Shown here: positions 30,230-39,909 of the stretch, one piece after another
Position numbering within the stretch: position 1 is the stretch's first letter
Layout: each line of letters starts with the position of its first letter
Source: an archaeon
GTDB taxonomy: Archaea; Thermoproteota; Nitrososphaeria; Nitrososphaerales; Gagatemarchaeaceae
NCBI GenBank assembly: GCA_021800855.1
Contig: JAJYYP010000006.1
Location: 1 to 50,305, forward strand
Direction: 5' to 3'
DNA length: 50,305 nucleotides
Translations under genes and position numbers: made by a program
The notes under the pieces: model-generated
Database searches by the model: none
What the model saw: the letters and a program-made list of their open reading frames with translations, nothing else
Told to the model about the DNA's origin: nothing

Positions 30230-30883
30230 GTGACATATAGGGACTATGCAGCACAGGCTCTGCTGCTTGTCTTGGCCATCTCCTTGGCTGCCCAGGGTAC
30301 AGTTGCCCAGACGTCGTACACGCTAACTGTCTCAACGGACAAGTCTTCATATGCGAGCGGACAGGCAATTCATGTCACAGGAAGAGTGATACCAGCCCCA
30401 GGCCCGAACACTGCAGTCTTCTTAGAAGTAATCAACCCGCATGACACCATAGTTGCTCCAGGAGAAGCAACGGTTAGTGCCGCCACTGGTCTCTATAACT
30501 ACACCTTCGTAGCCGGCGGGACTTCTGCGTGGGTTGCCGGGACATACACTGTGAACGCAACCTGGGGAGCATATCCTCCACAGGTGAACGCTACAGCCAC
30601 TTTCCAATACGCGCCGTCCGTGGTCACATCTACCAGTTCGAGCATATCTAGCGGCGCGAGCACAACTGGCAACCAGAGCACCACGACTGCCACCACGACA
30701 TCTTCCAGCTCAACTAACTCGGTCTTCAGCGCCACAACTTCGGTTTCCAGTTCCACCAAGAGCAGCGGTGGGATACCTGAGTTCCCGTTCCAGGCTGCGA
30801 TGGTAGGCATCACCGTCCTCGTGATAGTCTCGGCCTATCTAATGATGAAGAGGACTTCGTCAATGCGTCAGCATCTACAGTGA
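30230..30883 (+). CDS. Secreted protein with PEF-type C-terminal sorting signal
   Basis: 217 aa from the GTG at 30230. A signal peptide (residues about 1-26, ending AAQGTVAQ), then one beta-sandwich domain (about 28-138: YTLTVSTDKSSYASGQ, VTGRVIPAPGP, AGTYTVNATWG) like MG2/Ig-type domains, then a Ser/Thr-rich stalk (about 140-178), then GGIPEFPFQ, a transmembrane helix and a short basic tail. This tripartite end (motif, helix, Arg/Lys) is the layout of archaeosortase substrates; the PEFP form is common in Thaumarchaeota. Several N-glycosylation sequons (NxT/S) are present. The next gene is the sortase itself. Confidence 0.87.
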   Translation: MTYRDYAAQALLLVLAISLAAQGTVAQTSYTLTVSTDKSSYASGQAIHVTGRVIPAPGPNTAVFLEVINPHDTIVAPGEATVSAATGLYNYTFVAGGTSAWVAGTYTVNATWGAYPPQVNATATFQYAPSVVTSTSSSISSGASTTGNQSTTTATTTSSSSTNSVFSATTSVSSSTKSSGGIPEFPFQAAMVGITVLVIVSAYLMMKRTSSMRQHLQ

Positions 30884-30896
30884 ACGTGGCCAGTCG

Positions 30897-31796
30897 TTGA
30901 AAGCTGGAATTAGGTTCGCCGTTTGGATTGGAGCAGGAGCAGCCCTATCACTAGCCACCGCGCCGAACTTTCTTAGTCTTCTGGACCAGTCGCTGGGGGA
31001 CACGTTCGGCAGCGTCTTCCCAGCCGTCCCCTTCGCTGCCCTGTTGACGCTCATCTTCGCACTGAAGTGGAAGGAGCTACGCGGCCTACTTGATGCGGAA
31101 GGTGGGCTGGCATCCGAGCTCTGGACAAGGGCTCTCGGCGCAAGTATCTTGGTGGCGCTGTGGCTGTCTGAGCCTTACACAGGCAAGACGGTGGAGACAG
31201 CTGGCATTTCAGTCATCTTCACCATGTATGCCGCTTCGTTGGTCATTAACCCTCTGACGAAGGGATTCCTCCTCCCCTTTGCCGCCATCTATACTGTCGG
31301 GGTAGGCGCGCCGTTTGCGCTCCAGTGGGCTTTCGGCGAGCCGCTGGCCTACGCATCATCTGTCATGGCTTCAAGGTTCGTCGGCCTAGCCGGACTGCCA
31401 GTGGCTTGGCAGGGCACCCAGTTCGAGTTGTTTTCCAAGACAGGCGAAGTAGTCAACGGCTTCGTTGCGCCAGGATGCTCGAGTATAATTTCGATTACCA
31501 CCTTCGTCGGTCTGCTTGGTCTCATGCACTTAGACATGAAGAAGGACATTAGGTCGACGGCTGTCGTAGCGGTCGCAGGGGTAGCGATATTGACATTGCT
31601 TAACTCGTTCAGAATACTGCTCCTGATGTGGGTTGGATACGTCGATGGGGCCTCCGCATTCTGGGGGGTCCACAACTGGATAGGATACGCGATATTTCTT
31701 GGATTCTACCTTGCAGCGCTCACAATCTATTCCAGGATGGGAAGGAACAGCATTGCCGGTCATTCCAGTTCTGGAACCACATACACGCCGTCGTAG
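30897..31796 (+). CDS. Archaeosortase (exosortase family transpeptidase-like protein)
   Basis: 299 aa from a TTG at 30897, about eight membrane helices. The exosortase catalytic triad is visible: Cys in APGCSSIISI (about 198), Arg in LLNSFRILLL (about 240) and His in GVHNWIGYAIF (about 260). These enzymes cut a C-terminal sorting signal such as PEF and are thought to attach the protein to a lipid. It is encoded 13 bp after a protein ending in PEFPF and a membrane helix, so the pair looks dedicated. The TTG is weakly supported. The closest named group, as far as I recall, is the thaumarchaeosortase type. Confidence 0.87.
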   Translation: MKAGIRFAVWIGAGAALSLATAPNFLSLLDQSLGDTFGSVFPAVPFAALLTLIFALKWKELRGLLDAEGGLASELWTRALGASILVALWLSEPYTGKTVETAGISVIFTMYAASLVINPLTKGFLLPFAAIYTVGVGAPFALQWAFGEPLAYASSVMASRFVGLAGLPVAWQGTQFELFSKTGEVVNGFVAPGCSSIISITTFVGLLGLMHLDMKKDIRSTAVVAVAGVAILTLLNSFRILLLMWVGYVDGASAFWGVHNWIGYAIFLGFYLAALTIYSRMGRNSIAGHSSSGTTYTPS

Positions 31797-33133: not shown

Positions 33134-33241
33134 GGGGTCGTCGGCTAGTCTGGTCTAGGCTTCAAGCCTTGGGTGCCCTTCCGGCTTTCGCCGGCGTGCC
33201 GAGTCCGCTTGAGATCCCCGGTTCAAATCCGGGCGACCCCA
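33134..33241 (+). tRNA. tRNA-Pro (TGG) with a 32-nt intron at the canonical site
   Basis: Acceptor GGGGTCG/CGACCCC, A73 at 33241; D-arm GGCT/GGCT (two G-U pairs); anticodon stem CAAGC/GCTTG; T-arm CCCGG-TTCAAAT-CCGGG. Anticodon TGG is 33170-33172. Intron about 33174-33205 between positions 37 and 38; it holds a strong hairpin CCGGC-TTTC-GCCGG. A TATA-like element near 33100-33109 lies about 28 nt upstream. Confidence 0.92.
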
Positions 33242-33281
33242 TCCAATCATAAGACTCTAATGAAAACAGATAGTCATAGCG

Positions 33282-33310
33282 TTAAATACTTTTGACCTAG
33301 ACGTCAGGTC
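33282..33310 (+). promoter_or_regulatory. TATA box plus palindromic operator before the ATP-cone regulator
   Basis: TATA box TTAAATA at 33282-33288 is 28 nt before the TTG start at 33314. Between them, at the expected transcript start, lies GACCTAGACGTCAGGTC (33294-33310): arms GACCT/AGGTC around a central GACGTC palindrome. The position suits repression, plausibly autoregulation by the HTH protein it precedes. I did not find the same element at the nrdJ promoter. Confidence 0.6.
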
Positions 33311-33313
33311 GGG

Positions 33314-35401
33314 TTGCAGGCAGCTCCCCGCAGGGTCAAGACAATCTACAGTGTAATCGCGTCTCCACAGCGGCTCGAAATATTAAGGATACTGAACATC
33401 AAAGGCCCTCTGACCTATAGCGCCCTGAAGACCCTGGCTGGTTTCAAGTCGAAGAAGGAATCTGGAAAATTCGCCTACCACCTCCGAAAACTCGTGAAGC
33501 AGCTCCTCATCCAACTCAACAGGCAGGAGAGGAAGTACACGGTCACCAACCTCGGTCGGCTTGTGCTGAATCTTACAAGGCAGATAGAAGAGCAATCTCT
33601 CGTGGAGAGTGGGAAGCTGTATGTGCGGACTTCACATCAGACGATGGAGGAGTTCAACGCCAACAAGATACTTCAGTCTCTGGTGAAGGAGGCAGGGATG
33701 CCTGTGGAGCTGGCTCAGAAGATTACTAGTGAGACCGAATCCAGACTGTACAAATTCCAGACCCAGTACCTGACCGCCCCGCTCATACGCGAGATAGTCA
33801 ATGCGCTCCTCGTGGAGCATAGCATGGAAGAATACAGACACAAGCTCACCAGATTGGGCATGCCAATATATGACGTCACTCAGCTTTTGGGGAAGGCCGG
33901 GGACGAAGGGGCAAACGTCGAGTCGCTAATCCACCAGACCGGGAAGCAGGTGTTCTCTGAGTACCTCCTCTTGGAGCAGCTGCCAAGGGACGTTGCGGAC
34001 GCCCACCTGTCGGGCGAAATCCATATCACCAACGCGGGTTCGTGGGGTCTCTCCCCAGACACTGTGTTCATCGACCTGCTCTCAGTAAGGTCCGCAGGGC
34101 TTAACCCGAAGGGGAAGATACTCAACACCTCGATGATACCGAGCCCCGAGAATGCCGAAAGGGCGCTGAATATAGTTCTCAATATGACGTCCATGCTTAC
34201 TAGGGAGGTCTCTGACGAGGTGACCTTACGCAATTTCCTCCAATATGTCGGCCCATACTGCAGGTCTAAGGGGAAGAGGGAGCTTGAGTCTTTGTTCCTT
34301 AGGTTCTATGAGACCATCGGCTCGCCCGTAGCCGGAGCGACCGGGCCGGCAATCACGATCGACCTCAACCCATACAAGCATGACGACGTCGGCCGAGAAA
34401 TATTGGACAAGACGCTTGACGCCGCCCTCGGAGCCTACAGAAGCTACGTCGAAGAGACGCCCCGGCCTGACGTTCGGCTTCTCCTGGCGAAGCCCAACAG
34501 AGTGGATGAGACCAAGACATTGAAAGACGCAGCATCGATCATATTCAACGGCGGGAGGATTGCATTCTTCGCCTCAGATCAGCGGAGGAGCTTCCTCGGG
34601 CTTAACGCCAACGTCCTCGCTCAGGAGTCCCAGGCGGACAACATAAGCGTCCTCCATGGTCTCAGCCTGAACCTCCCCAGGCTAGCTTACGACTCCAACC
34701 AAGATGAAACTTACTTCAGGGCGAAGTTAGCCCTCCTCATCGGGGTAGCAGCGGACGCGCTCTCGACGAGGAGGAGGCTGATCGAGAGGGCATTGAAGAG
34801 GGGCCTGCTTCCGTCCTTGGCGTCTGGTTCCGACGCGGTGACTTCAGACACTATGCCTCTAATCATGAATCTTGTCGGCCTCGAAGAGACCCTTGCCAGC
34901 CTGATAAGAGACTCGACTACGGCCTCCCGTTACGAGCTTGCCGACAAGATAGTGGGGACGGCCACCCAGGTGGCTGACGACAAATCGACCAAGATTGACA
35001 GGCTGGGCGTGGCGATGTTGGACCTGGACGGCGCACTCAGGCTCGCAAACCTTGATTCTGAGAAATATGGTAAGGCTAACCTCCAACCCCTCATGAGAGG
35101 GGCATACACTCAGGCACCCAGGCTGCTTCTGGGCGACCTGGAGAACCCGGAGAAGATGGACCATATGGCTAAACTCTCCACGGGATTACGCGGAGGGATT
35201 TCTGTCACCTTGGACGGGTCCGCCGACGAGGTCAGGGGAATATACAACCTCATTCTTAATGCGACACCCAAGCTTGCTTACTTCAAGGTGGACAAGACCA
35301 TCTTTGTCTGCAGAAACTGCGGAGCGAAACTGCCGCAGAGCGCAGGCAGGTGCCCTAGGTGCAAGTCTGTGGCGACGACACAGTATTCAACCGCCGGCTA
35401 G
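33314..35401 (+). CDS. HTH + ATP-cone + inactive NrdD-like protein: predicted dNTP-sensing regulator
   Basis: 695 aa from a TTG at 33314. Domains in order: ArsR-like winged helix (about 8-85, VIASPQRLEILRILNIKG), ATP-cone (about 100-190, EEFNANKILQSLVKEAGM), a class III ribonucleotide-reductase-like body (about 200-655; ADAHLSGEIHITNAGSW matches the NrdD 'aHlxGdIHIhD' segment) and a C-terminal Cys4 zinc ribbon (CRNC, CPRC). The protein has only five cysteines, four of them in the ribbon, and there is no C-terminal glycyl-radical motif, so it cannot be a working NrdD. The ATP-cone senses ATP/dATP in reductases and in the bacterial repressor NrdR. It precedes class II reductase by 148 bp, so it probably controls that gene according to dNTP level (inference). 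Confidence 0.8.
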   Translation: MQAAPRRVKTIYSVIASPQRLEILRILNIKGPLTYSALKTLAGFKSKKESGKFAYHLRKLVKQLLIQLNRQERKYTVTNLGRLVLNLTRQIEEQSLVESGKLYVRTSHQTMEEFNANKILQSLVKEAGMPVELAQKITSETESRLYKFQTQYLTAPLIREIVNALLVEHSMEEYRHKLTRLGMPIYDVTQLLGKAGDEGANVESLIHQTGKQVFSEYLLLEQLPRDVADAHLSGEIHITNAGSWGLSPDTVFIDLLSVRSAGLNPKGKILNTSMIPSPENAERALNIVLNMTSMLTREVSDEVTLRNFLQYVGPYCRSKGKRELESLFLRFYETIGSPVAGATGPAITIDLNPYKHDDVGREILDKTLDAALGAYRSYVEETPRPDVRLLLAKPNRVDETKTLKDAASIIFNGGRIAFFASDQRRSFLGLNANVLAQESQADNISVLHGLSLNLPRLAYDSNQDETYFRAKLALLIGVAADALSTRRRLIERALKRGLLPSLASGSDAVTSDTMPLIMNLVGLEETLASLIRDSTTASRYELADKIVGTATQVADDKSTKIDRLGVAMLDLDGALRLANLDSEKYGKANLQPLMRGAYTQAPRLLLGDLENPEKMDHMAKLSTGLRGGISVTLDGSADEVRGIYNLILNATPKLAYFKVDKTIFVCRNCGAKLPQSAGRCPRCKSVATTQYSTAG

Positions 35402-35513
35402 GCATATGGCTGGAGCTCTTTTGTCAATATCATTTTACAGCTGAACGTCTCATGTCGCGGATAAAAGCGTGGGCTACGCTAAGATGGTTAACTCGGCATA
35501 AGCCTACTCGGAA

Positions 35514-35521
35514 TTATATAT
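35514..35521 (+). promoter_or_regulatory. TATA box of nrdJ
   Basis: TTATATAT at 35514-35521 predicts a transcript start near 35544, just before the ATG at 35550 and after the alternative GTG at 35535, which favours the ATG. nrdJ thus has its own promoter, separate from the upstream regulator. Confidence 0.6.
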
Positions 35522-35549
35522 CACGCGCACTGGGGTGAAGGCTAAGGTT

Positions 35550-37868
35550 ATGACGTCGATAGTTGAACAACCACACGACTCCCCGGACTTGGGGGAGACT
35601 ACGAGAGGAGAAGTCAAAATCCCAGTGGAGACTCTGGCGGCGTTCGGAGGGGATGAGCTGCGCGCCCGGGTCTTCTATGAGAAGTACGCGCTGAGAGACG
35701 CGGCAGGACGGCAGGTCGAGAGCGTCCCGGCGGACATGTGGCGCCGGGTCGCAAAGGAGCTCGCTTCGCCCGAGAAAGACGAGGAGAAGAGAAGGGAATG
35801 GGCCAACAAGTTCTACTGGCTTCTTGAGAACTATCGTTTTGTCCCAGGAGGACGGGTCCTGTTCGGCGCGGGGCAGGCGAGGAAGTCAACGCTACTGAAT
35901 TGCTACTTCTTCAAGATCAAAGAAGACTCGATCGAGTCCATATTCGACTGGTGCAAGGAAGCCGCCCGGACGTATAGCTTCGGCGGAGGGGTTGGGACGG
36001 ATATCTCGGTCCTGAGGCCGAGGGGTGCACCGGTGAATAACTCTGCCATCTACAGCTCTGGTTCGGTCTCTTTCATGGAGCTCCTCTCTACTACGACCGG
36101 GACTATTGGCCAGGCAGGGAGGCGGGGGGCCCTAATGATCACTATTAGGATAGACCATCCTGACGTGATGGACTTCATCAGCGTAAAACGGGATCTCAAG
36201 AAGGTCAACTATGCCAACATATCGGTAAAGATTACCGATGACTTCATGCGGGCTGTTGAGACCGACGGAGACTTCCTGCTCCACTTCAAGAATGAAAAGG
36301 TCGAAGCGAACCGCACGGTGAGGGCCAGAGAGATTTGGAAGTCTCTTGTCAAGGGAGCCTGGCAGTCTGCTGAACCCGGGGTACTCTTCTGGGACGCCAT
36401 CAAGCGCGAGTCAACCACTGAGTACAATGGTATGGAAGTACAAGGAGTCAACCCTTGCAGCGAGCAGACTCTCGAAAGCTATGGGTGCTGCTGCCTGGGC
36501 TCAGTGAACCTGAGCGCCTTCGTGAAGGACCCGTTCACCGAGCGGGCGAGCATCGACTGGGACCAGCTCACCAGAGCCGCCCAATTCGGCGTCAGGTTCC
36601 TTGACAACGTCCTCGACTACAATGCAGAGAGGCACCCCCTCCCGCAACAGAAAGAGGCATCCCTGTGGAGCAGGAGAATTGGGATGGGGATTACCGGTCT
36701 AGGGGACATGCTCATCAAGCTGGGGCTGAAGTACGACGAGGATTCGACGATTGGATTCGTAGACCATTTGTTCGAAAGGATCAAGAATGTGATCTACGAC
36801 TATTCGTCCGAGCTTGCGAAGGAGAAAGGAAGCTTCCCTGCGTTCGATGCAGACAAACACCTAGCCCAGCCGTTCATCTCAAGGCTTGAGGAGAAGGTGA
36901 AGGAGAAGATTAAGGCGCAGGGGATCAGGAACGCCGCTGTCACCACAATCCCGCCTGTGGGTTCTGGATCAATCCTCGCTGGGACCAGCAGCGGCGTCGA
37001 GCCTGTCTTTGCGCTCTACTACACGCGGAGGAGCAAATCGCTGAGTGAAGGGGAGTTCAAAGTCTTCCATCCTCTCGTGAAGGAATACATGGCAGCCACT
37101 GGAGCAAGAGACGAGGGTCAACTCCCTAACTACTTCGTCACCGCCCACCAGATTAAGCCGGAGATGAGGGTGAAGATGCAGGCGACGATTCAGAAACATA
37201 TCGACACCGCCATCTCCAGCACAGTGAACCTCCCTGAGGAGATAACGCCAGAAGAGGTCGAAAAAATCTACATGCTCGCATGGCGCATGGGGTGCAAGGG
37301 CATCACAGTCTACAGAGAAGGGAGCAGGGAAGGGATTCTTGAGACCGAGAAGGCCGCCAAAAGACCCGAGGCCCCGAAGTCTGCCGCAGCCTTCGAGCGA
37401 CCCAAGGTGATGGAGGGGCGGACCCTCAAACTCAAACTTCCCCAGGGGAGCATCTACCTTACAGCGAACCTCGTCGGAGACGCGATCAAGGAGGTCTTCG
37501 TTACGCTGGGGAAGTCCGGGGCTGATGAGAACGCAGACGCGGCCGCGCTCGGCAGGCTGATCAGCCTGTACCTCCAGCATGGAGGGGACATCAAGAACGT
37601 CATCTCCACCCTGAAAGGAATCAAGGGGAAGTACGTGTCTTGGGACGAGGGAACCCAGCTGCAGTCCATCCCGGACGCCATCGCGAAAGCCCTGGAGCTC
37701 TTGACCCTCAACCGCGTGGTCAAGGAATCAGGCTTCGTGGATGAAACCAAGGGGAAACAGGCGTCCAAGGGAGGGACAGGCACCTGTCCTGACTGCCATG
37801 AGAGCACTCTGGTGTTCGAGAACGGATGCTACCACTGTAATACGTGCGGCTACTCGAAGTGCGAGTAG
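35550..37868 (+). CDS. nrdJ: Ribonucleotide reductase, class II (adenosylcobalamin-dependent)
   Basis: 772 aa from the ATG at 35550. Reduces ribonucleotides to deoxyribonucleotides with B12, independent of oxygen. Visible: RFVPGGRVLFGAG, the first active-site Cys in LLNCYFF, SFGGGVGTDISVLRP, the catalytic NPCSEQTLESYGCC (about 312-325), and TTIPPVGSGSILAGTSSGVE. A linker (about 600-640) leads to a C-terminal domain with an Asp/Glu-rich TSCPxC-like ribbon: CPDC, CYHCNTC and a final CE, giving the redox-active tail cysteines. No N-terminal ATP-cone is evident; that domain is instead in the upstream regulator. No small subunit gene nearby, consistent with class II. Confidence 0.95.
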   Translation: MTSIVEQPHDSPDLGETTRGEVKIPVETLAAFGGDELRARVFYEKYALRDAAGRQVESVPADMWRRVAKELASPEKDEEKRREWANKFYWLLENYRFVPGGRVLFGAGQARKSTLLNCYFFKIKEDSIESIFDWCKEAARTYSFGGGVGTDISVLRPRGAPVNNSAIYSSGSVSFMELLSTTTGTIGQAGRRGALMITIRIDHPDVMDFISVKRDLKKVNYANISVKITDDFMRAVETDGDFLLHFKNEKVEANRTVRAREIWKSLVKGAWQSAEPGVLFWDAIKRESTTEYNGMEVQGVNPCSEQTLESYGCCCLGSVNLSAFVKDPFTERASIDWDQLTRAAQFGVRFLDNVLDYNAERHPLPQQKEASLWSRRIGMGITGLGDMLIKLGLKYDEDSTIGFVDHLFERIKNVIYDYSSELAKEKGSFPAFDADKHLAQPFISRLEEKVKEKIKAQGIRNAAVTTIPPVGSGSILAGTSSGVEPVFALYYTRRSKSLSEGEFKVFHPLVKEYMAATGARDEGQLPNYFVTAHQIKPEMRVKMQATIQKHIDTAISSTVNLPEEITPEEVEKIYMLAWRMGCKGITVYREGSREGILETEKAAKRPEAPKSAAAFERPKVMEGRTLKLKLPQGSIYLTANLVGDAIKEVFVTLGKSGADENADAAALGRLISLYLQHGGDIKNVISTLKGIKGKYVSWDEGTQLQSIPDAIAKALELLTLNRVVKESGFVDETKGKQASKGGTGTCPDCHESTLVFENGCYHCNTCGYSKCE

Positions 37869-39014: not shown

Positions 39015-39347
39015 TCAGGATGTGAGCTTCAGGATTGCCCGGGCAACCTCGCCGTCAGACTGTTCGAGGGCCGCCACAACTTTCTCCCGGGGTGCCCCGG
39101 TCTGTTGCCGCACAAGGAGGATGTCCTCTTCGCTGAATGTCTTCCTCTCCACTTCCACCTCCTCGACTTCTCCCACGACTTGGAACATCCTCTGCCCCTG
39201 GGCGTTGACTTCTGAGACTGACGCGTTGGTGATGTGCATCTCTATTTCGGGCGTCTTAATCACGACCTCCTGGACGTTGGGGACCTCCTTCATGTTTATC
39301 CCAAGGCGGTCCATCATCCTTCTCGCGTTCCTGTTGTCCATTTTCAT
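39015..39347 (-). CDS. nac: Nascent polypeptide-associated complex protein
   Basis: 110 aa. NAC domain (about 10-70: MMDRLGINMKEVPNVQEVVI, AQGQRMFQVVG) followed by a UBA domain (about 73-108: FSEEDILLVRQQTGAPREKV, AILKLTS). Archaeal NAC forms a homodimer at the ribosome exit and shields nascent chains. Its ATG overlaps the stop of the PUA gene (ATGA), a tight operon of ribosome-related proteins. Confidence 0.96.
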   Translation of the reverse strand: MKMDNRNARRMMDRLGINMKEVPNVQEVVIKTPEIEMHITNASVSEVNAQGQRMFQVVGEVEEVEVERKTFSEEDILLVRQQTGAPREKVVAALEQSDGEVARAILKLTS

Positions 39348-39811
39348 GCCGCTATGCCTGATCTGACCTTCACTGCGGTCCCAGACTTAAATTGTTTCAT
39401 GTGCGCCCCATTGAGCACGGCCATCCCCACACCCAGAATTTTCCACCTCCCGTCCACTACTGCCACCTCGCTCTTTGGATAGATTTTCTTCCCCGACCAA
39501 GTGACAAACTTGCAGAAAACAGACCTCCCGCCTCGTACAAACTGGGTAACGTCGTCGGACACCTGCACGCAGTTGTCCTTGAACCTAGGGCTCCGGGAAA
39601 GGGTTTGGGCTCCGAAGATGGAGAGGGCGATGGCCCCGTTCGGTTTTACGACGGCGAAGAGCTTCCCGTCGAGATTGATCTGCTTCACCCGTCCGGATCT
39701 CCTGGACCGAAAGAGCTTGTAGACGCCTCTCGGAAGAGCCCTGCTCACGCCTTTCCCGAACAGGTAGTCTATCATCAGGCCAACTTGCCTGCGGTCCGGT
39801 AGAGTGTCCAT
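39344..39811 (-). CDS. PUA-domain RNA-binding protein
   Basis: 155 aa from the ATG at 39809-39811; an ATG at 39865 would add 18 residues, but a TATA-like CTTTATCG lies between the two, favouring the later start. N-terminal domain (about 1-80: VGLMIDYLFGKGVSRALP) and a C-terminal PUA domain: VQVSDDVTQFVRGGRSVFCKFV, then VAVVDGRWKILGVGMAVLNGAHM. PUA domains bind tRNA or rRNA and occur in modification enzymes; no catalytic domain is seen here. Cotranslated with nac. Confidence 0.85.
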   Translation of the reverse strand: MDTLPDRRQVGLMIDYLFGKGVSRALPRGVYKLFRSRRSGRVKQINLDGKLFAVVKPNGAIALSIFGAQTLSRSPRFKDNCVQVSDDVTQFVRGGRSVFCKFVTWSGKKIYPKSEVAVVDGRWKILGVGMAVLNGAHMKQFKSGTAVKVRSGIAA

Positions 39812-39909
39812 CTCCGAGAGGCGCCAACTTGAGGGCGATAAAGCTGCGCCATGGCCCGATGTCACTGTTCATCTACCGGGGCTGAAGAGGGAGGACGAGA
39901 GGAGGCAGG

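Follow-up and report, generated by a model that had tools for sequence, protein, structure and literature searches.

NrdR, the bacterial repressor specific to ribonucleotide reductase (RNR) genes (TIGR00244), binds these genes and represses them in its dATP/ATP-loaded form (PMC9110341). Catalysis by the class III reductase NrdD depends on a small set of residues; the P. copri enzyme needs Cys171 on the first barrel strand, Cys416 in the radical loop and Gly711 (PMC11226230). Here we describe an archaeal gene that shares traits with both systems. Its product is probably a dead NrdD, derived from an archaeal class III reductase in a single event, that now serves as a dyad-binding regulator, reading the dNTP pool and lowering RNR expression. 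A published description of such a dead-NrdD regulator family was not found in the open-licence literature.

Domain architecture of the regulator

The regulator gene occupies positions 33314-35401 on the + strand of the window, i.e., the whole 50,305-nucleotide stretch of DNA that was analysed. It encodes 695 residues from a TTG start that most close relatives share; a TATA box (TTAAATA) lies ~30 nt 5' of the TTG. Searches against Pfam, NCBIfam and PDB profiles, AlphaFold modelling and structure comparison divided the product into a winged helix (residues ~7–92, 33332-33589), an ATP-cone (residues ~102–190, 33617-33883), an NrdD-like ten-stranded barrel (residues ~191–660, 33884-35293) and a zinc ribbon (residues ~661–690, 35294-35383), all on the + strand. 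The winged helix is matched by DUF7347 at residues 11–85, above the Pfam cut-off, and by HTH_20 just under its cut-off. ATP-cone PF03477 (residues 103–174, E 8e-7) and NRDD PF13597 (two stretches, E 1e-26) both exceed their Pfam cut-offs, and the ribbon is matched at residues 664–685, with C666, C669, C680 and C683 invariant. The equivalog model for NrdD, TIGR02487, gave 83.5 bits, well under its cut-off of 326 bits. A profile built from 23 orthologues found T4 NrdD in the PDB (E 1.3e-13), in an alignment that ends at the zinc ribbon.

The AlphaFold model of the full-length protein (pLDDT 82, pTM 0.71) has class III RNRs as its best structural matches (Foldseek E 4e-20), and NrdD structures superimpose on it with a VIA Z of ~30 over 450–469 residues at 2.8–3.3 Å. 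The N-terminal 190 residues were also folded separately, giving a model that is to be read with care (pLDDT 69, pTM 0.48). It matches the cone of S. coelicolor NrdR (Z 10.7, 81 residues, 2.3 Å), RNR ATP-cones (Z up to 10.7 among NrdR and RNR cones) and MarR-like winged helices (Z ~10). The preliminary description of this DNA had read the gene as a fusion of helix-turn-helix, ATP-cone, NrdD-like body and zinc ribbon, and each of these domains was found by Pfam profiles, with the fold supported by the AlphaFold model. In its own assembly, which is 91% complete, the gene is the only NrdD match and also holds the only ATP-cone.

Just upstream of the regulator lies a tRNA-Pro(TGG) gene with a 32-nt intron (33134-33241, +; ARAGORN, introns allowed). 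Farther upstream, an exosortase/archaeosortase-domain gene (30897-31796, +) directly follows the gene of a Ser/Thr-rich secreted protein (30230-30883), whose tail (IPEFPFQAAM, later a hydrophobic stretch and KR) resembles, by eye, a PEF-CTERM sorting signal.

Loss of the reductase active site

The E. coli counterparts of P. copri Cys171, Cys416 and Gly711 are C175, C384 and G681. Catalytic residues were compared by aligning 36 regulators, sampled across the phylum, with seven NrdDs, one from E. coli and six archaeal. In the regulator, T250 occupies the column of C175 and R424 that of C384, and the radical-loop region reads RSFLGL vs. CRSFLGV in E. coli. All seven true NrdDs retain the strand cysteine and the radical-loop cysteine, whereas neither the strand (beta-1) cysteine nor the archaeal-type loop cysteine pair occurs in any of the 36 regulators. 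Two distant regulators (L164, L169) have a cysteine in the C384 column, three residues ahead of the archaeal NrdD loop cysteines, but lack the strand cysteine; a third (L149) has a glycine near the glycyl-radical place and neither cysteine. The glycyl-radical loop itself is missing because the chain ends 12 residues past the last zinc cysteine. Throughout the class Nitrososphaeria the regulators end soon after the ribbon and the glycine loop is gone, while more distant regulators keep a remnant of the region without the usual motif. The absence of active-site cysteines and of a glycyl-radical motif, claimed earlier from the letters of this one gene, thus held up in the alignment, which revealed no catalytic cysteine and no glycyl site, and the prediction that the product is a catalytically dead NrdD is well supported. 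Pfam NRDD matches in such genes are easily misread and are no sign of anaerobic dNTP synthesis.

Conservation along the chain points the same way. Mean pairwise identity among 48 orthologues is 82% in the winged helix, where GFKSKKESGKF is invariant, and 73% in the cone, compared with 36–40% in the barrel and 43% in the ribbon. This order is the opposite of that expected for a catalyst and fits a DNA-binding sensor. That the protein retains enzymatic activity through an unusual mechanism is accordingly very improbable: the complete NrdD fold predicted at Z ~30 would suit it, and T. maritima NrdD is reported to lack a pre-positioned active-site cysteine, but here neither cysteine position nor the glycyl loop has survived, and no part of the protein is less conserved than the barrel. 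A decaying pseudogene or a chance fusion would also account for the lost active site, a reading we regard as barely credible and already contradicted, given that ~140 genomes of the class have the reading frame uninterrupted over nearly its whole length and that its N-terminal half is strongly conserved.

Within the cone, E112, F114 and T154 do not vary, and position 118 is K or R; in our alignment E112, F114 and position 118 correspond to E56, F58 and K62 of S. coelicolor NrdR. The place of the KRDG lysine (K50 in S. coelicolor NrdR) is taken by Thr or Ser. Active archaeal NrdDs of the same phylum carry the same VRTS-type cone, likewise without this lysine, so that the change may have been inherited and nucleotide binding need not be lost. 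Judging by homology, this cone may act as a sensor of ATP and dATP.

Distribution and origin

The regulator is present in 138 of 140 good genomes of the class Nitrososphaeria, a few of the matches covering the N-terminal part only, and orthologues occur in 31 of the 32 good genomes among the relatives searched. Named orthologue records belong to Nitrososphaerota/Thaumarchaeota, with Ca. Gagatemarchaeum among the near relatives. At the level of the phylum, winged helix and cone are found together at E < 1e-40 in ~92 of 151 genomes (our count). NrdR, as judged by TIGR00244 above its cut-off, is limited to seven of these 151 genomes, all from one family (f24), and profile searches found none in genomes of the class Nitrososphaeria, including that of the organism studied here. 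The f24 genomes (G199, G253, G263, G273, G288, G303, G318) have a dead-NrdD regulator in addition to a bona fide NrdR.

In a tree built from cone and barrel, 36 regulators and 15 NrdDs fall on opposite sides of one branch (support 100/99). A single origin is the simplest reading of this tree, which is unrooted. Repeated decay of NrdD enzymes into regulators was considered and finds no support, as a single branch divides the two groups.

Linkage to class II reductase genes

The next gene on the same strand, nrdJ (35535-37868, +), is the predicted target. It encodes a class II, B12-dependent ribonucleotide reductase of 777 residues that has no ATP-cone (PF02867 at E 1e-110, TSCPD, TIGR02504 above cut-off), and the position before a cone-less class II reductase that had been noted for the regulator was borne out by these Pfam and NCBIfam assignments. 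Among species-level loci of the same order with enough downstream DNA, nrdJ is the next gene on the same strand in 74 of 74, which also answers the question of whether homologues lie near nrd genes. In 130 of the 131 fetched loci holding both genes, a set that contains some species twice, nrdJ lies downstream on the same strand; in the exception (L180) the two are convergent.

The reductases at these loci are of at least four dissimilar types: ~777 residues without a cone (65 loci), 883 residues with a cone (48 loci, three with an altered KRDG motif), ~700 residues, in some with an additional intein (14 loci, four with a recognisable cone), and 1,059 residues (three loci). The regulator has stayed while the type of reductase changed. 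In seven loci (L008, L015, L021, L031, L079, L083, L095) nrdJ is interrupted or enlarged as by inteins. The idea that the regulator makes up for a cone missing from the reductase agrees with the locus studied here but not with the general picture, as the regulator precedes a cone-bearing NrdJ in Nitrosopumilaceae and relatives; cone compensation as a rule was rejected because J42-type NrdJs beside the regulator carry a cone. Six genomes of the class without the regulator (G042, G062, G065, G072, G075, G090) all have a cone-bearing NrdJ, which fits the compensation idea, although they are few and mostly from one family.

Evidence from these loci also bears on the possibility that the dead paralogue is mainly a protein partner of NrdJ, supplying the missing ATP-cone for control in trans, with a minor role for the winged helix. 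The RNR fold of the regulator, the presence of nrdJ in every species-level locus of the order and the cone-less NrdJ at 35535-37868 would all be explained in this way. We nevertheless judge it improbable, as conservation within the protein is highest in the winged helix, matching dyads occur at both promoters (see below), and the partners include at least four dissimilar NrdJ types, many with a cone of their own.

Beyond the order the linkage loosens. In most other orders and classes the regulator gene is not beside an RNR gene; this is usual for the other orders of the class (L177, L179, L181), and two divergent copies within the order (L176, L178) likewise do not adjoin nrdJ. In other classes, homologues precede a true nrdD (L161, L167, L183) or nrdJ (L157), or stand beside pyrB (L148, L167) or argF (L153, L156). 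Since the latter two are aspartate and ornithine carbamoyltransferase genes, the targets there may differ.

Two genes downstream of nrdJ in the window there is a NAC-domain gene together with a gene that looks PUA-type (39015-39865, −), and in L153 the genes right after the regulator are a HYPK-UBA (NAC-like) gene and a PUA gene. The occurrence of NAC and PUA genes near the regulator at both loci suggests that nrdJ and pfkB were inserted into an older gene neighbourhood.

Candidate operators

Comparison of upstream regions revealed a dyad, GTNAA-N6-TTNAC, in the promoters of both the regulator and nrdJ, with different cores. The candidate operator of the regulator (GTTAAATACTTTTGAC, 33281-33296) overlaps the TATA box TTAAATA, has the start codon ~18 nt downstream and is kept in relatives. 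At nrdJ, box 1 (GTCAATATCATTTTAC, 35423-35438) lies about 112 nt before the start and is kept in the genus and several other families. A degenerate second box (GTTAACTCGGCATAAG, 35487-35502) follows 64 bp past box 1 and precedes the TATA box of nrdJ (TATATAT, 35515-35521, +). Most sequences of the genus keep this second box as GTNAAC..G..T.AGCC, 64–68 bp from box 1 where it is recognisable, and TATATA is kept 92–96 bp from box 1. The spacing of box 1, second box and TATA box is maintained in the genus while the intervening sequence diverges. A conserved element, CG..TCATG, was also observed between the two nrdJ boxes in the genus (~35450-35465 in the window, and in relatives).

Per base, the dyad is far denser in the promoters of the regulator (2.3e-3) and nrdJ (1.5e-3) than in the coding region (8.7e-6). 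Among 31 divergent representatives with <70% identity, it precedes the regulator in eight, vs. 0.09 expected from dinucleotide shuffles, and nrdJ in five, vs. 0.21 expected; no shuffle gave more than two. Genome-wide, two of the three matches in the complete genome G005 are the regulator and nrdJ sites, and the same ratio was obtained in G008, G028 and G033. In the assembly studied here these sites make up two of five matches; those on C73, a small contig, represent a single sequence present twice. A wider regulon was considered on account of a third match in this assembly, before a purD-like gene (named by eye). In 22 loci from relatives only the TATA-side part is kept and the GTC arm is not, so that we regard it as a chance match and a useful control.

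Simple scans found no shared dyad in Nitrosopumilaceae, and outside the class the exact count over 33 distant regulators, two vs. 0.2 expected, is not convincing. One exact match, before the regulator of L161, was given no weight because GTCAA-N6-TTGAC is dispersed in that genome (G258) in dozens of near-identical copies, many of them paired ~34 bp apart, which possibly represent another regulon or a mobile element. The GTNAA-N6-TTNAC dyads are the presumed binding sites of the regulator.

The arrangement at nrdJ raises the question of the sign of control. It is rather unlikely, yet deserves consideration, that the DNA-binding regulator activates nrdJ while repressing its own gene, or that it responds not to dATP but to another signal, e.g., cobalamin, oxygen or substrate nucleotides. 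Both nrdJ boxes lie upstream of the TATA box, where archaeal activators often bind, the KRDG lysine place of the cone is atypical, and NrdJ requires B12. However, the cone fold is nearest to NrdR and RNR cones, E112, F114, K/R118 and T154 are kept, and neither a cobalamin element nor any other known RNA element was found upstream of nrdJ.

Proposed function and mechanism

Regulation of nrdJ by the product of 33314-35401 is well supported. The combination of a dead NrdD, a winged helix, a place before nrdJ and a dyad at both genes makes an NrdR-like job the most likely one, and the dead-NrdD regulator thus most likely fills the role of bacterial NrdR in these archaea. Such a role had been put forward in the preliminary description. 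It gains from the nrdJ linkage within the order, the absence of NrdR and the dyads at the regulator's own and the nrdJ promoter, whereas outside the order most homologues lie away from RNR genes.

As we envisage it, radical chemistry would have been lost from the ancestral reductase while ATP-cone, barrel fold and zinc ribbon were retained and a winged helix was fused in front. The regulator presumably dimerises, and a dimer would occupy GTNAA-N6-TTNAC, with one dyad on its own TATA box and one, plus the degenerate copy, upstream of nrdJ. On its own TATA box the dimer should block TBP/TFB, so that the gene would be autorepressed. The ATP-cone, perhaps together with the old specificity site of the barrel, could read ATP/dATP or the dNTP pool, with dATP as the presumed signal. 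This signal would change the dimer such that plentiful dNTPs lower reductase expression. At nrdJ, with its boxes upstream of the TATA box, the regulator could either repress by looping or activate; repression of nrdJ is favoured because of the analogy with NrdR, and it is on this analogy that we expect nrdJ to be repressed rather than activated. Points against the overall scheme are the atypical cone lysine, the nrdJ boxes upstream of the TATA box, the taxonomic limits of the dyad and the non-RNR neighbours elsewhere.

A more tentative thought, which we hold to be possible but doubtful, is that the protein is a two-channel dNTP sensor in which the cone reads ATP vs. dATP while specificity effectors or substrate continue to bind to the dead barrel. 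If so, reductase transcription in this archaeal lineage would depend on how large the dNTP pool is and also on how it is balanced, beyond what a cone-only NrdR would be expected to do. For Nitrososphaeria, including ammonia oxidisers, the analysis provides a single candidate gene and a single target gene, together with exact DNA sites.

Comparison with known systems

Like NrdR, the regulator joins an ATP-cone to a DNA-binding domain, is encoded beside RNR genes and is predicted to control RNR and itself, and the NrdR cone is the closest structural match of its own cone. In contrast to NrdR, in which the DNA-binding head is an N-terminal zinc ribbon, it has a winged helix in this place and its ribbon is C-terminal; NrdR comprises 140–220 residues, whereas the 695 residues of the regulator carry a whole dead NrdD. 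The operators also differ, with two boxes about three helical turns apart for NrdR and one dyad per promoter plus a degenerate copy ~65 bp away for the regulator, and TIGR00244 matches neither the protein nor any other product of its genome. With class III NrdD (PF13597, TIGR02487) the regulator shares fold, the order of cone, barrel and zinc ribbon, and a sequence match above the Pfam cut-off, but it lacks the strand and loop cysteines and the glycyl-radical loop, has an extra winged helix and falls below the TIGR02487 cut-off. Because the defining features of each fail (zinc-ribbon head and TIGR00244; cysteines, radical loop and TIGR02487), it is neither an NrdR nor an NrdD; it is a family separate from NrdR that most likely works in an NrdR-like manner.

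MarR/ArsR-type regulators (HTH_20, DUF7347) resemble it in the fold of the winged helix and the conserved recognition-helix region, but its sensor is an ATP-cone with a dead reductase; the libraries searched held no member combining winged helix, ATP-cone and dead reductase. WhiA, a transcription factor related to homing endonucleases (PMC3781837), likewise uses an enzyme-derived scaffold with a helix-turn-helix for gene control. Its scaffold is unrelated, and only in the regulator does the parent enzyme family coincide with that of the genes predicted to be controlled. A cone-bearing regulator of reductase genes, as in NrdR, and an enzyme-derived transcription factor, as in WhiA, are known kinds; a reductase turned regulator beside reductase genes appears to be new.
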